Origin: an uncultured Verrucomicrobiota bacterium
Lineage (GTDB): Bacteria > Verrucomicrobiota > Verrucomicrobiia > Limisphaerales > UBA9464
Assembly (NCBI GenBank): GCA_903842505.1
Contig: CAIMMI010000234.1
Coordinates: 1-58,747, forward strand
Length of the DNA stretch: 58,747 nucleotides
Direction: 5' to 3'
The notes under the pieces are model-generated. The model was not told the origin of the DNA, searched no databases, and was given only the letters and a program-made list of their open reading frames with translations. Shown piece by piece: positions 1,901-57,558 of the stretch (within the stretch, counting starts at the first letter, position 1; the number at the start of each line of letters is the position of its first letter). The translations under genes and the position numbers were made by a program.

Positions 1901-1928
1901 AAGGCTCGGCGGAGTCTTGCCCCACCCC
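1901..1928 (+). repeat. Family A palindromic repeat, single arm (copy A1)
   Basis: Contains GGCTCGGCGGAGTCTTGCC followed by CCACC, a diverged single right arm of the family A intergenic repeat (better copies at 16066-16238 and 57440-57510). It lies in the nuoA-panC divergent region. No left arm is recognisable. Confidence 0.6.
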
Positions 1929-4199: not shown

Positions 4200-4211
4200 G
4201 AAGGGGGATGA

Positions 4212-4276
4212 CCCGCCTCGTTACCTCGGCGGCTACGGGAGTGTGGGATATCCCGCCTCGTTACCTCGGCGGCTAC
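4212..4276 (+). repeat. Family B repeat, two direct units 40 bp apart (copy B2)
   Basis: Two identical 25-bp units (4212-4236 and 4252-4276), each CCCGCCTCGTTACCTCGGCG followed by GCTAC, lie head to tail with a 15-bp spacer. The second unit ends 2 bp from the stop codon of the downstream minus-strand hypothetical gene. Related units occur near 7.6 kb and 31.5 kb. Confidence 0.8.
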
Positions 4277-5210: not shown

Positions 5211-5234
5211 CGGCTCGACGGAGTCTCGCCCCAC
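5211..5234 (+). repeat. Family A palindromic repeat, single arm (copy A2)
   Basis: Right arm core CGACGGAGTCTCGCCCCAC is intact, with no left arm alongside. It sits between the divergent secreted hypothetical gene and the gene starting at 5286. Confidence 0.75.
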
Positions 5235-7484: not shown

Positions 7485-7812
7485 GGTGACGGGCAAATTC
7501 GGCCGATCCCGGTCATTGGCAAGGGTTATTTTCCCCGGGGGAGAAGCCAGTTGCCAGAGGCCAGTTCCCAGTTCAACGGTCCCGCCTCGTTACCTCGTCG
7601 GCTACGGCTGAACAGTCCTGGAAGCTGGAAACTGGCGACTGGGAACTCCCTCCGGGCCCCGCCTCGTTACCTTGGCAGCTCCGGTTGGGGGGTGACGGGG
7701 AGATGACGGTTGAAACCGGTGGGGGTGGACCGTAACGTGGGCGCGTGGTTCGGCCTGCGTTGGGCAGGACCGCACCTCGGCCTACCAGATTTTCGGTTTT
7801 TGACCAGTCGCC
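7485..7812. other. Intergenic region with family B repeats
   Basis: A 328-bp gap between the divergent rhodanese and livK genes. It holds CCAG-rich words (about 7545-7575 and 7618-7650) alternating with two family B units (7581-7605 and about 7657-7684), then about 120 bp of unremarkable sequence leading to livK. No coding region is convincing. The livK promoter must lie here, but I see no clear -35/-10 pair. Confidence 0.7.
7581..7684 (+). repeat. Family B repeat, two direct units (copy B3)
   Basis: Unit one (7581-7605) reads CCCGCCTCGTTACCTCGTCG + GCTAC. Unit two (about 7657-7684) is a diverged copy, CCGCCTCGTTACCTTGGCAG + CTCC. They are separated by a CCAG/GGAA-rich spacer. Confidence 0.7.
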
Positions 7813-12384: not shown

Positions 12385-12487
12385 GATGGGACCTATGGGA
12401 TGAATGGGACCTATGCGACAGGACGCGAAGACATAGGTCCTATCGGTCCCATGGGTCCCATAGTTCCCATACTTCCCATAGTTCCCC
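12385..12487. repeat. Short-tandem array with dyad symmetry (ATGGGACCTAT words)
   Basis: Two direct copies of ATGGGACCTATG near 12386-12415 face several inverted words, CATAGGTCC, GGTCCCATGGGTCCCAT and repeated TTCCCATA, between 12432 and 12487. The segment can fold on itself and is the only feature between livF (plus) and the VC0807-type gene (minus), so it may double as a termination zone for both. Confidence 0.75.
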
Positions 12488-14788: not shown

Positions 14789-14888
14789 TGATGACTCCCT
14801 TCACTGATGACTGCCGGCACGCGGTTCTTCACGCCATTTTTTGCAAAGCCTCGGCTGAAGGGCGGCCGTCTACACGGGTCCCAAAGCG

Positions 14889-15024
14889 GGTGGGGTGAGA
14901 CTCCGTTGAGCCGTTCCTCGAAGTCGCAAGTTTTCAGATTCAAGTTTGAAGGAGGAGTCGGGCTTGAATCTTGAATCTTGAAACTTGGGACTCCCAAACG
15001 GCTCGTGAGGACACGAGCCCCACC
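14889..15024 (-). repeat. Family A element, full-length inverted copy (A3)
   Basis: Read on the minus strand, this 136-bp segment aligns along nearly its full length with 16110-16238 on the plus strand. The ends are GGTGGGGC... and ...GGAGTCTCACCCCACC, and the interior (CAAGTTTCAAGATTCAAG ... AAACTTGAATCTGAAAACTT) is almost identical. A3 has an extra 7-bp ATTCAAG duplication. It lies between DUF1501 and glutaredoxin and contains no ORF. Confidence 0.85.
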
Positions 15025-15031
15025 ACTCGAT

Positions 15032-15055
15032 GGGGGCAACGAGGACGTTGTCCCC
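15032..15055. repeat. Small palindrome GGGGCAACG-AGGA-CGTTG
   Basis: GGGGGCAACGAGGACGTTGT with following CCCC is a compact hairpin. A close match, GGGCAACGGGGACGTTGCTC, occurs at 42548-42568, so it is a dispersed element rather than a chance dyad. Confidence 0.6.
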
Positions 15056-15062
15056 TCCGGTT

Positions 15063-15314
15063 TCAGCGATCGAACTCCATGCGCTTCCACCAGACCTCGA
15101 GTTCGTCGGCGCCAAAGTCGGCGAGGATGTGGCCATCGACGTCGATGGAGGGCGCCTTGGTCTGGCCGGTGAGGTCGTGCATCTCGCGTCGGGCCGCGGC
15201 GTCGCGGAGGACGTCGAGGGTTTCGTGGGAGATGCGCCGATGGGCGAGCCAGTCGATGGCTTCGTCGCACCAGGGGCAGCCGGACTTGATGAAGAGGCGG
15301 ATGGACTTGGGCAT
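15063..15314 (-). CDS. Glutaredoxin-family protein
   Basis: An 83-residue thioredoxin-fold redox protein. MPKSIRLFIKSGCPWCDEAI places the CPWC active site at residues 13-16, just after the first beta strand. The cis-proline is in TKAPSIDVDG, with DGHILADFGADEL following, as in class I glutaredoxins. It is expected to reduce disulfides or glutathionylated proteins in the cytoplasm. The stop of this gene faces the A3 repeat, and its start is 12 bp downstream of the Lon-N-domain gene end, so the two are probably co-transcribed. Confidence 0.92.
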   Translation of the reverse strand: MPKSIRLFIKSGCPWCDEAIDWLAHRRISHETLDVLRDAAARREMHDLTGQTKAPSIDVDGHILADFGADELEVWWKRMEFDR

Positions 15315-15326
15315 ACGTGGTTGCGG

Positions 15327-16004
15327 CTAGAAAGGGGTGGAGTCGTCGGCGTGTTCTTCGGCGAGGTCTCCAGTGAGGAACACGACCAGGTAACGGAAAC
15401 GTTCTGCGACGTTCGCCGCCTGAAGGATCATCTGTCGATGGTTTGCCGACCGGATGAGGAGCAGGGTGAGGAGGTCGGCCAGGTGACCCGGGCTCGAGAT
15501 GAGGCGGAGGGCATCGACTGCGGCACGAGAGGGGTCATCCGGATGGCCGCCGGAGCGGACGAGTTGGCGGAGGAGATCGGTGGCGACGACCGAGTTGTTT
15601 CGGATCCGGGTCTCGGCGAGTTCGAGCACGCGGGCGCGGAGGGCATCGACGAGGACGGTGTCGGAATCACCGACGTCGAGCACGTTGATCTTCTGCAGGC
15701 GGAAGGGCTTGTACCGGACGACCGAGGCAAGTTTGACGCGGGCGACCCCCTGAAGGATGAGGTTGGAGGTGCCGTCGGCGTTCTTGACGGCGGCGCGGAT
15801 GACTCCGAGGCCGGCGACGGGGCAGGGGGTTTCCCGGCTGGACCCGGGCTTGAGCATGGCGACGCAGAACATCCGATGGGAGTCGAGCGACTCGGCGAGC
15901 ATGGTCCGGTACCGCGGTTCAAAGATGTACAGGGGGAGCATCGCCTGGGGAAACAGGACGCCACTGCTGAGGATCATGACTCCGACGGAGTCCGGTACGA
16001 GCAT
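15327..16004 (-). CDS. Lon N-terminal (substrate-binding) domain protein
   Basis: A 225-residue protein resembling the N-terminal LON domain without the AAA+ ATPase or protease parts. Key stretches are VLFPQAMLPLYIFEPRYRTML (near residue 17, the family hallmark), MFCVAMLKPG, VAGLGVIRAAVKN and LILQGVARVKL. The helical C-terminal half (ETRIRNNSV, SPGHLADLLTLLL) corresponds to the helical extension of Lon-N. Such stand-alone proteins are presumed adaptor or folding factors; the function is not established. The frame continues upstream to 16352, but that part is antisense to repeats, so the ATG at 16004 (MLVPDSVG) was chosen. Upstream of glutaredoxin by 12 bp. Confidence 0.88.
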   Translation of the reverse strand: MLVPDSVGVMILSSGVLFPQAMLPLYIFEPRYRTMLAESLDSHRMFCVAMLKPGSSRETPCPVAGLGVIRAAVKNADGTSNLILQGVARVKLASVVRYKPFRLQKINVLDVGDSDTVLVDALRARVLELAETRIRNNSVVATDLLRQLVRSGGHPDDPSRAAVDALRLISSPGHLADLLTLLLIRSANHRQMILQAANVAERFRYLVVFLTGDLAEEHADDSTPF

Positions 16005-16342
16005 GTCGGATTGTATGGTGAGAGTGGGAGGCTGCAAGTGGAGGAACGATTCCGCATGGGTGGAACGGCTCGACGGAGTCTCGCCCCACCTCTCGACAGG
16101 TCCCGCACTGGTGGGGCGAGTGAACTCACGAGCCGCGGCAGAGTCCCAAGTTTCAAGATTCAAGCCCGGCTCTTCCTTCAAACTTGAATCTGAAAACTTG
16201 CGACTTCGAGAAACGGCCCGACGGAGTCTCGCCCCACCCGACGGGGTAGCAGGTGAGGAGTGGTTCGTGAGGGTACTCGCCTCACGGGGGGATTGGGGCG
16301 GGGTATTGCATCGGGCTGAGGACTGGCGAGAGTGGGTTCGAG
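16005..16342. other. Intergenic region filled with family A repeats
   Basis: This 338-bp divergent region between the Lon-domain gene (minus) and the coiled-coil gene (plus) is mostly a composite family A element (16066-16238). The remaining ~100 bp before 16343 show no ORF or clear promoter. Confidence 0.7.
16066..16238 (+). repeat. Family A composite element: arm-loop-arm plus full-length copy (A4)
   Basis: Order of parts: right arm 16066-16090, variable 19-nt spacer, left arm 16110-16135, interior, right arm 16214-16238. The first three parts form a hairpin of 11 plus 7 paired bases around an internal loop; the last three form the ~130-bp element matched in inverted orientation by 14889-15024. 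The right arm core is CGACGGAGTCTCGCCCCACC. Confidence 0.85.
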
Positions 16343-23213: not shown

Positions 23214-23310
23214 GTTCGACGTCTCGCTCCACCCGATGAGGATCCGCTTCGGTGGGGCGAGTGTCCCCACGAGCCGATCGATGAACGGCTCGACGGAGTC
23301 TCGCCCCACC
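23214..23310 (+). repeat. Family A repeat, degenerate arm plus minimal palindrome (A5)
   Basis: Left arm (23251-23276) and right arm (23286-23310) are separated by only 9 bp, giving a ~60-bp palindrome. A degenerate further right arm lies just upstream (23214-23233). A CTTGAAACTTGAAG-type dyad follows (about 23314-23335), matching the interior words of the full-length copies. Confidence 0.8.
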
Positions 23311-31175: not shown

Positions 31176-31723
31176 GATGCGATACGAGTTGGTTTGATCT
31201 GTGGGTGTACTAGGCGTGGTCACCGGGTTGCTGCGGGGCCCTGAAGCTTTGGCTGGAGACAGCCAGAAGCGGGTCGCCGGGCATCACGGAGTGTTCCGGG
31301 ATGCCCAAGGGCTCAGTCTTGCCGATGAACTTTTGTTGGCACATGCCTGCGCAAAACCGTCCCACAGGTCTGGCTGGCGACCCAATGCAACCATAGCGTG
31401 GAGACGGAAGATGGCGCGTAGTGAACGCGGGGGGGGCGGCGAGCGCAACGGAAAACACGGCTGACCCGTGGCAGCCGAGGTAACGAGGCGGGGCGCACGG
31501 AGAGTTCCCAGTCGCCAGATTCCTCGCCCTGCCTCGTGACCTCGGCAGCTACGGACCGGGAGTAGCCGACGAGGTGACGAGGCGGGGTGTGGGATCAGCC
31601 TCCTGACGTCGACTGCTACCCTCAACCGTACCAGCTGAGGCAGCGAGGCTGGCCCTGGATCGCTCGTTTCCCAACTCTCCGCTTCAAAGTCCTTTTGGGA
31701 TTTGGCAACAAGGGCAGACCGAA
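31176..31723. other. 548-bp intergenic region, family B repeats in the second half
   Basis: Divergent region between the MFS transporter and the lipoprotein gene. The first ~290 bp show no coding region; a modest dyad around 31278-31303 (GGGCATC / GATGCCC) stands out. From 31470 to 31620 the sequence is almost wholly family B repeats. The last ~100 bp before 31724 hold the lipoprotein leader and no obvious promoter. Confidence 0.7.
31470..31620. repeat. Family B repeat cluster with alternating orientation (copy B4)
   Basis: Units run inverted (31470-31494), direct (about 31527-31554), inverted (31562-31587), then a diverged direct unit (about 31597-31619, GCCTCCTGACGTCG + CTGCTAC). The middle two face each other across ~8 bp and can form a long hairpin. 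A CCAG-type spacer (31502-31525) separates the first two. Confidence 0.75.
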
Positions 31724-57439: not shown

Positions 57440-57510
57440 CGGCTCGACGGAGTCTCGCCCCACCCTTTCGGAGCTCTCCAAATCGGTGGGGCGAGTGTCC
57501 TCACGAGCCG
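57440..57510 (+). repeat. Family A hairpin element with variable loop (A6)
   Basis: Right arm (57440-57464) and left arm (57485-57510) bracket a 20-nt spacer unrelated to the spacers of the other copies. The left arm is followed by GGGGAATCCCGAGTTTCAAG, the start of the interior found in the full-length copies. Confidence 0.85.
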
Positions 57511-57558
57511 TTGGGGAATCCCGAGTTTCAAGGAGCCCGGCGTTGCCCCGGCGCGGCA

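Follow-up and report, generated by a model that had tools for sequence, protein, structure and literature searches.

The two segments of about 130 bp that lie in opposite orientation around a pair of genes are members of a non-coding, hairpin-forming, intergenic family of mobile repeats in a bacterium of Verrucomicrobia subdivision 3. The family is of the REP/REPIN type, its sequence is new as far as searched, and its nesting in a MITE shell is unusual. The window, i.e., the whole stretch of DNA analyzed (58,747 nucleotides), had been described in a first-pass annotation as carrying a MITE-like or REP-like family, and this was right: intergenic palindromes with REPIN/BIME anatomy occur genome-wide, and part of them lie inside a MITE-like shell with 9-bp duplications. 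We regard it as probable that the family is a non-autonomous mobile repeat of the REP/REPIN type, whose arms were spread by a Y1 enzyme and part of whose copies were captured by the outer shell, here called A.

Copy 1 (14889..15024, minus strand, 136 bp) and copy 2 (16110..16238, plus strand, 129 bp) can be aligned inversely from end to end, with 84% identity over the full length (BLASTN), and appear as two inverted pairs, 14887-14985/16142-16240 (99 nt, 91% complementary) and 14970-15025/16109-16164 (56 nt, 84% complementary). Each is a composite of arm, heptad palindrome and arm. In copy 1, an arm of the AC/GT type (GGTGGGGTGAGACTCCGTTGAGCCG) occupies 14889..14913 on the plus strand, and an arm of the TG/CA type, in which the tandem G.A mismatch has been lost and the stem is fully paired, occupies 14999..15024 on the minus strand. 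The heptad palindrome between them (CTTGAAT/CTTGAAA, 14922..14992) has one heptad more than that of copy 2, an inverted-repeat pair at 16142..16205; the extra ATTCAAG reported earlier was confirmed (TRF, 14963-14987, period 7). The arms of copy 2 are of the TG/CA type at 16110..16135 (plus) and of the AC/GT type at 16213..16238 (minus). The genes between the copies encode, as first annotated, a glutaredoxin (PF00462) and a LON substrate-binding domain (PF02190), and the gene beyond copy 1 encodes a DUF1501 protein. As single-stranded DNA, copy 1 was predicted to fold at -29.7 kcal/mol (z -4.9) and copy 2 at -31.7 kcal/mol (z -4.8), and all three window elements tested folded far better than their shuffles (z -4.8 to -6.9).

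The composite has the order B-C-B', where B reads GGTGGGGCGAGTGTCCTCACGAGCCG at one end and GGTGGGGCGAGACTCCGTCGAGCCG at the opposite end, and the spacer C is a palindrome of approximately 85 nt made of AAGTTTC/AAGATTC heptads, whose number varies by gain and loss of units. The B arm (24-26 nt) consists of an unpaired tag GGTGG, a stem GGC, a tandem G.A/A.G mismatch, a G-C pair, two further pairs and a loop TCC(T); the tag is constant, and the canonical GTAG is absent from the arm. In relatives, the two inner stem pairs change together (AC/GT, TG/CA, CG/CG, GA/TC, GC/GC and others). In a set of 71 different inner sequences, 113 of 142 cells were paired, compared with a mean of 60.4 and a maximum of 81 in 20,000 shuffles, and among longer arms at the phylum level the figure was 64 of 69 (shuffle mean 42.4, maximum 58); in neither set were sequences weighted by relatedness, and the anchors of the search pattern (GTGGGGCGAG...CGAGCC) held the outer stem constant. 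Since the two arms of one copy differ at the inner pairs and yet each pairs with itself, the sequences point to the single arm, and not a large cruciform, as the recognized hairpin.

Doublets of arms were examined in the window and 60 further sampled stretches, where 21 dimers with tags outward (HH), 12 with tags inward (TT) and four head-to-tail (HT) were found, and 44 arms were single at no more than two substitutions. Every HH (21/21) and every TT (12/12) dimer combines two arm types. The TT spacing is 17-20 nt in 11 of 12 cases, and the shortest spacer measures 11 nt (window 23251-23310), the longest more than 100 nt. The heptad palindrome C lies inside 11 of the 21 HH doublets, and a hexad palindrome (GTACTC/GAGTAC) in one other (L155). 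The family is thereby a high-copy hairpin palindrome, mainly extragenic, with inverted doublets as its main higher-order unit, which are the marks of REPs and REPINs.

Several other members are present in the window. An additional AC/GT arm (16066..16090, minus) points its tag toward copy 2 over 19 nt, forming a BIME-like TT dimer, and a decayed arm lies at 16261..16285 (minus). The simple doublet at 23251..23310 (plus, fold z -6.9) has an 11-nt spacer free of heptads and is probably the ancestral form. At 57440..57532, a TT dimer spaced by 20 nt precedes what is left of a heptad interior, and single arms lie at 1902..1925 and 5211..5234, both on the minus strand. Apart from this family, the window also contains GTAG-tagged repeats of another REP family (4205-4276, 7574-7682 and 31466-31590; GTAGCCG(C/A)CGAGGT(A/G/C)ACGAGGCGGG), with a predicted hairpin, tandem G.A mismatches and a GTNA-type loop, whose variants GAGGTAACGA and GACGTCAGGA look compensatory. 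A tandem 9-bp unit (CATAGGTCC, about six copies) adjoins a gene end at 12432-12486.

The genome of origin is a Limisphaerales-type draft (5.2 Mb, 362 contigs, 96% complete). Querying it with copy 1 yielded 412 first-look candidates, and all 40 that were scored had E<=2.7e-31. By pattern search, the exact terminal arm occurs 326 times, compared with none for the reversed control, and a terminal 20-mer has seven matches in the window alone versus 0.04 expected, which excludes chance as the source of the match between the two copies. The exact junction of arm and heptads occurs 78 times (control 0), so that the composite has at least 78 copies. The pair is therefore not confined to this locus: copies occur genome-wide, and the arm was detected in 29 of 96 relatives and 18 of 288 genomes of the phylum. 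These counts come from pattern searches and approximately 330 kb of sampled sequence, and the genomes are mostly drafts. Among the matches listed, the exact arm is shared with Verrucomicrobia, several of which, where named, are MAGs of subdivision 3 or Limisphaerales. Its distribution is patchy, with 20 copies in one congener (G003) and 0-1 in the seven others, and it is abundant again in scattered genomes from other genera, families and classes, which suits a mobile repeat; in other families and classes the doublets have an unrelated spacer or none. Rfam gave no match at the element, and a literature search for the arm sequence gave, among the papers listed, unrelated ones only. The impression that the pair itself is recent could not be upheld, because contig C114 holds two copies that resemble copy 1 more closely (91% and 88%, among the 40 scored of 412 candidates) than copy 2 does (84%), and copies 1 and 2 are thus not a recent local duplication.

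Many B units are surrounded by the shell A, an outer 23-bp inverted repeat (GGGCGCATCTTGACACTGCCCCC). Taking the 1% quantile of a random control (10 mismatches) as the limit, an A arm was found on at least one side in 30 of 52 B units and on both sides in 13; 22 had none. Copy 2 is without the shell. Around copy 1, the stretch 14860..15054 is probably a decayed A shell, judging from weak matches at the edge of significance (left arm 14860-14882 with 9/23 mismatches, right arm 15032-15054 with 10/23), and no target duplication was detectable there. A sites number 66 in the own genome, 462 in G006, 97 in G004, 79 in G002 and 62 in G003, and the A-bounded elements are 120-540 bp long and mostly non-coding. 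What they enclose differs among the genomes. In the own genome it is B-C-B', in G003 a doublet similar to B, in G006 the REP-like doublet D (GGTGGCGACGTCCTCGTCGCC), in G004 a near-perfect palindrome of about 390 bp besides other sequences, and in G002 and G007 palindromes of the CCCGGG type, with a stretch containing a 156-aa reading frame at one G007 locus (L203). The G004 palindrome (L192, contig C116; 87% self-complementary, predicted RNA fold -387 kcal/mol) resembles two head-to-head copies of the end of a longer element. Many of the A copies in G003 are no more than about 100 bases away from the end of a contig (e.g., C92:17, C106:73 and C98:92), suggesting that such palindromes probably fragment draft assemblies.

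The 9-mers directly outside A match at 7 or more of 9 positions in 23 of 42 elements (control 0.12%), and perfect duplications were found 11 times at length 9, twice at 8, once at 10 and never at the other lengths tested, which indicates that A is the end of a transposable element. Elements with 9-bp duplications and species-specific cargo were seen across the genus (L190-L203, L254-L273 and L185-L188 among the loci). In the own genome, one element with a simple B doublet as cargo (L136) has a 9/9 duplication (GAAGTTCAT twice), and others reach 8/9 (L002; L248, with D as cargo) or 7/9 (L157). Only two of the 13 doubly A-flanked B units of the own genome reach 6/9 or more, in addition to one with a one-base shift (L114), and most have no clear duplication; these copies may be old, as their mere 80-91% likeness to each other suggests, or may have been inserted other than as A units. 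At the one candidate empty site compared, an A insertion of G006 and its orthologue in the window gave no alignment. The A-bounded unit thus presents terminal inverted repeats, a duplication of fixed length and no transposase gene, as a MITE does. The boundary of the 130-bp B-C-B unit, on the other hand, has no perfect target duplication of length 4-12 in any of 52 units, and by itself this unit does not qualify as a MITE.

The same data could be read to mean that the composite is merely the middle of an A-ended MITE of about 190 bp, with a DDE transposase as the sole agent and the inner arms as passive cargo. The A-bounded units with 9-bp duplications across the genus, the perfect duplication at L136 and the lack of duplications at B boundaries all agree with this reading, which we nevertheless consider doubtful, because 22 B units are free of any A arm, the arm abounds in other families and classes in doublets whose spacer is unrelated or missing, and covariation within a single-arm hairpin is unexpected for passive cargo. 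On the preferred reading of a REP/REPIN-type repeat partly captured by A, the B arms would have spread first, as single-strand hairpins moved by a Y1 (RAYT-like) enzyme without target duplication. A Y1 route is suggested because a tag plus a mismatch-bearing hairpin is what TnpA-REP recognizes in E. coli (PMC8266576) and because duplications are lacking at the B boundaries. A would be moved in trans by a transposase of the DDE type, as the fixed length of its 9-bp duplication suggests, and B-C-B' would have been captured in A and multiplied as its cargo. Both enzymes are hypothetical and may be gone from the own genome.

Candidate enzymes were sought with PF01797 in the own genome and 20 relatives, and then, starting from the Y1 protein of G006, among its relatives in 50 genomes. 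The transposase with matching ends that the first-pass annotation asked for was not found, in that the two Y1 genes (PF01797) of the own genome are bounded by terminal repeats unrelated to the element. These repeats are inverted and approximately 25 bp long (L031 and L032); that of L031 is GCAATGGGGTCAGTCCCG, has an extra copy outside and is of the TIRYT type. A cognate RAYT for B was likewise not identified among 30 Y1 loci of relatives, none of which is immediately flanked by B; an arm doublet lies within about 1 kb of the Y1 gene at only two of them (L085 and L092), and the ten best-matching Y1 genes have flanking palindromic repeats of their own, several with a TAG- or GTAG-type tag, and never B. 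A Y1 gene of G006 (L098) with a D doublet and an A arm was considered as a REPtron and rejected, since its D doublet is one of dozens in that genome and the association is probably an insertion. In sister genera, Y1 genes with palindromic repeats on both sides, e.g., TAGCCGGTGGT...CACCACCGG, are likely to be REPtrons that each possess a separate REP sequence (L225-L233). No parent insertion sequence with A ends was found among the sampled loci.

In Pseudomonas and E. coli, REPs and REPINs are tagged hairpins present in hundreds of extragenic copies and as inverted doublets (PMC3116915; PMC8266576). The present family resembles them in its doublets with variable spacers, its compensatory stem changes and its conserved mismatch bulge (AA-GC in E. 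coli, tandem G.A here), and differs in its tag (GGTGG, not GTAG), its exclusive heterodimers, a spacer that may be a heptad palindrome of about 85 nt, and the lack of a cognate RAYT in the own genome and at the relatives' Y1 loci. Further comparisons draw on PMC3733652. There, a cognate RAYT is not universal, CGTC REPs being described without one, and most GTAG-20 elements of Opitutus terrae have GTGG as a mutated form of the tag. B shares the phylum and the GTGG tag with GTAG-20 and so may be related to it. REP dimers inside longer unrelated palindromes, as here, are described in the same paper for GTAG-15 of A. variabilis and CGTC-1 of H. neapolitanus; here, unlike in those accounts, the outer palindrome is repeated and mobile, makes 9-bp duplications and has species-specific cargo. 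With bacterial MITEs, as characterized there as a class, the A shell shares terminal inverted repeats (23 bp here), length (120-540 bp here), mostly non-coding content and a target duplication, and it departs from that description by placing many unrelated, often palindromic cargos in one shell. The two Y1 genes of the own genome are like the TIRYT/TIRtron type of that paper in having inverted terminal repeats unrelated to REPs, one of which contains GGGGTCAG and fits the published motif GGGGWSAS; these terminal repeats differ from both A and B. The literature searched offered no example of a mobile shell whose palindromic cargo varies from species to species.

It is improbable that selection maintains the elements for a regulatory or RNA structure (as terminators, mRNA stabilizers or BIME-type protein-binding sites) and that they are not mobile repeats. 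Strong folding (z about -5 to -7), stem covariation and intergenic placement would fit such a role: predicted coding sequences hold only 5 of 113 arms, although approximately 79% of the 330-kb sample is coding according to our own gene prediction with a simple hexamer model. However, amplification is patchy and lineage-specific (326 arms against 0-20 in eight congeners), orthologous genes lack the element, Rfam offers no counterpart, and a loosely matched set of arms is spread over all gene arrangements (95 between tandem, 59 between divergent and 26 between convergent genes) without favoring gene ends. Nothing points to a function for the neighboring genes.

Orthologous sites without the element were identified in the sister species G006, G002 and G007. 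The unaligned part of the gap between the DUF1501 and glutaredoxin genes is 229 nt in the window versus 51 in G006, and 282 versus 71 in G002, and that between the LON gene and the next gene is 334 nt versus 79 in G007. At a third site (window 23251), G006 and G002 hold different palindromic repeats in the same intergenic space. The order and orientation of DUF1501-glutaredoxin (G006, G002) and of LON and the next gene (G007, G003) are as in the window, implying no net inversion of the two-gene unit, and the earlier proposal that the two genes may be inverted finds no place in these sites, which keep both neighbors and orientation. An invertible switch, in which recombination between the inverted copies flips the glutaredoxin-LON segment and alters expression, is highly improbable: inverted repeats of about 130 bp lie about 1.1 kb apart as it would need, but they are only 84% identical with indels, the gene order is the same in sister species free of the element, and a specific local switch is needless to explain two members of one scattered family.

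The usual explanation of REPs invokes only Y1 (RAYT) transposases, and for some REP families no transposase is known to us. As a tentative extension of the preferred reading, A may be a general carrier, in which REP palindromes would enter at or near the center of A as a hairpin target and a DDE transposase would copy the shell together with its cargo; this would explain why different palindromic repeats are found in A in each sister species and, if true, would constitute a second, RAYT-independent route of REP spread. Palindromes of the A type are also a warning of fragmentation in draft genomes. If REP doublets also ride as cargo of an ordinary transposon shell, it becomes understandable that REP families can be abundant where a RAYT is lacking, and the uncultured Limisphaerales, which combine one common shell with a number of species-specific REP families, would be a natural comparison set.
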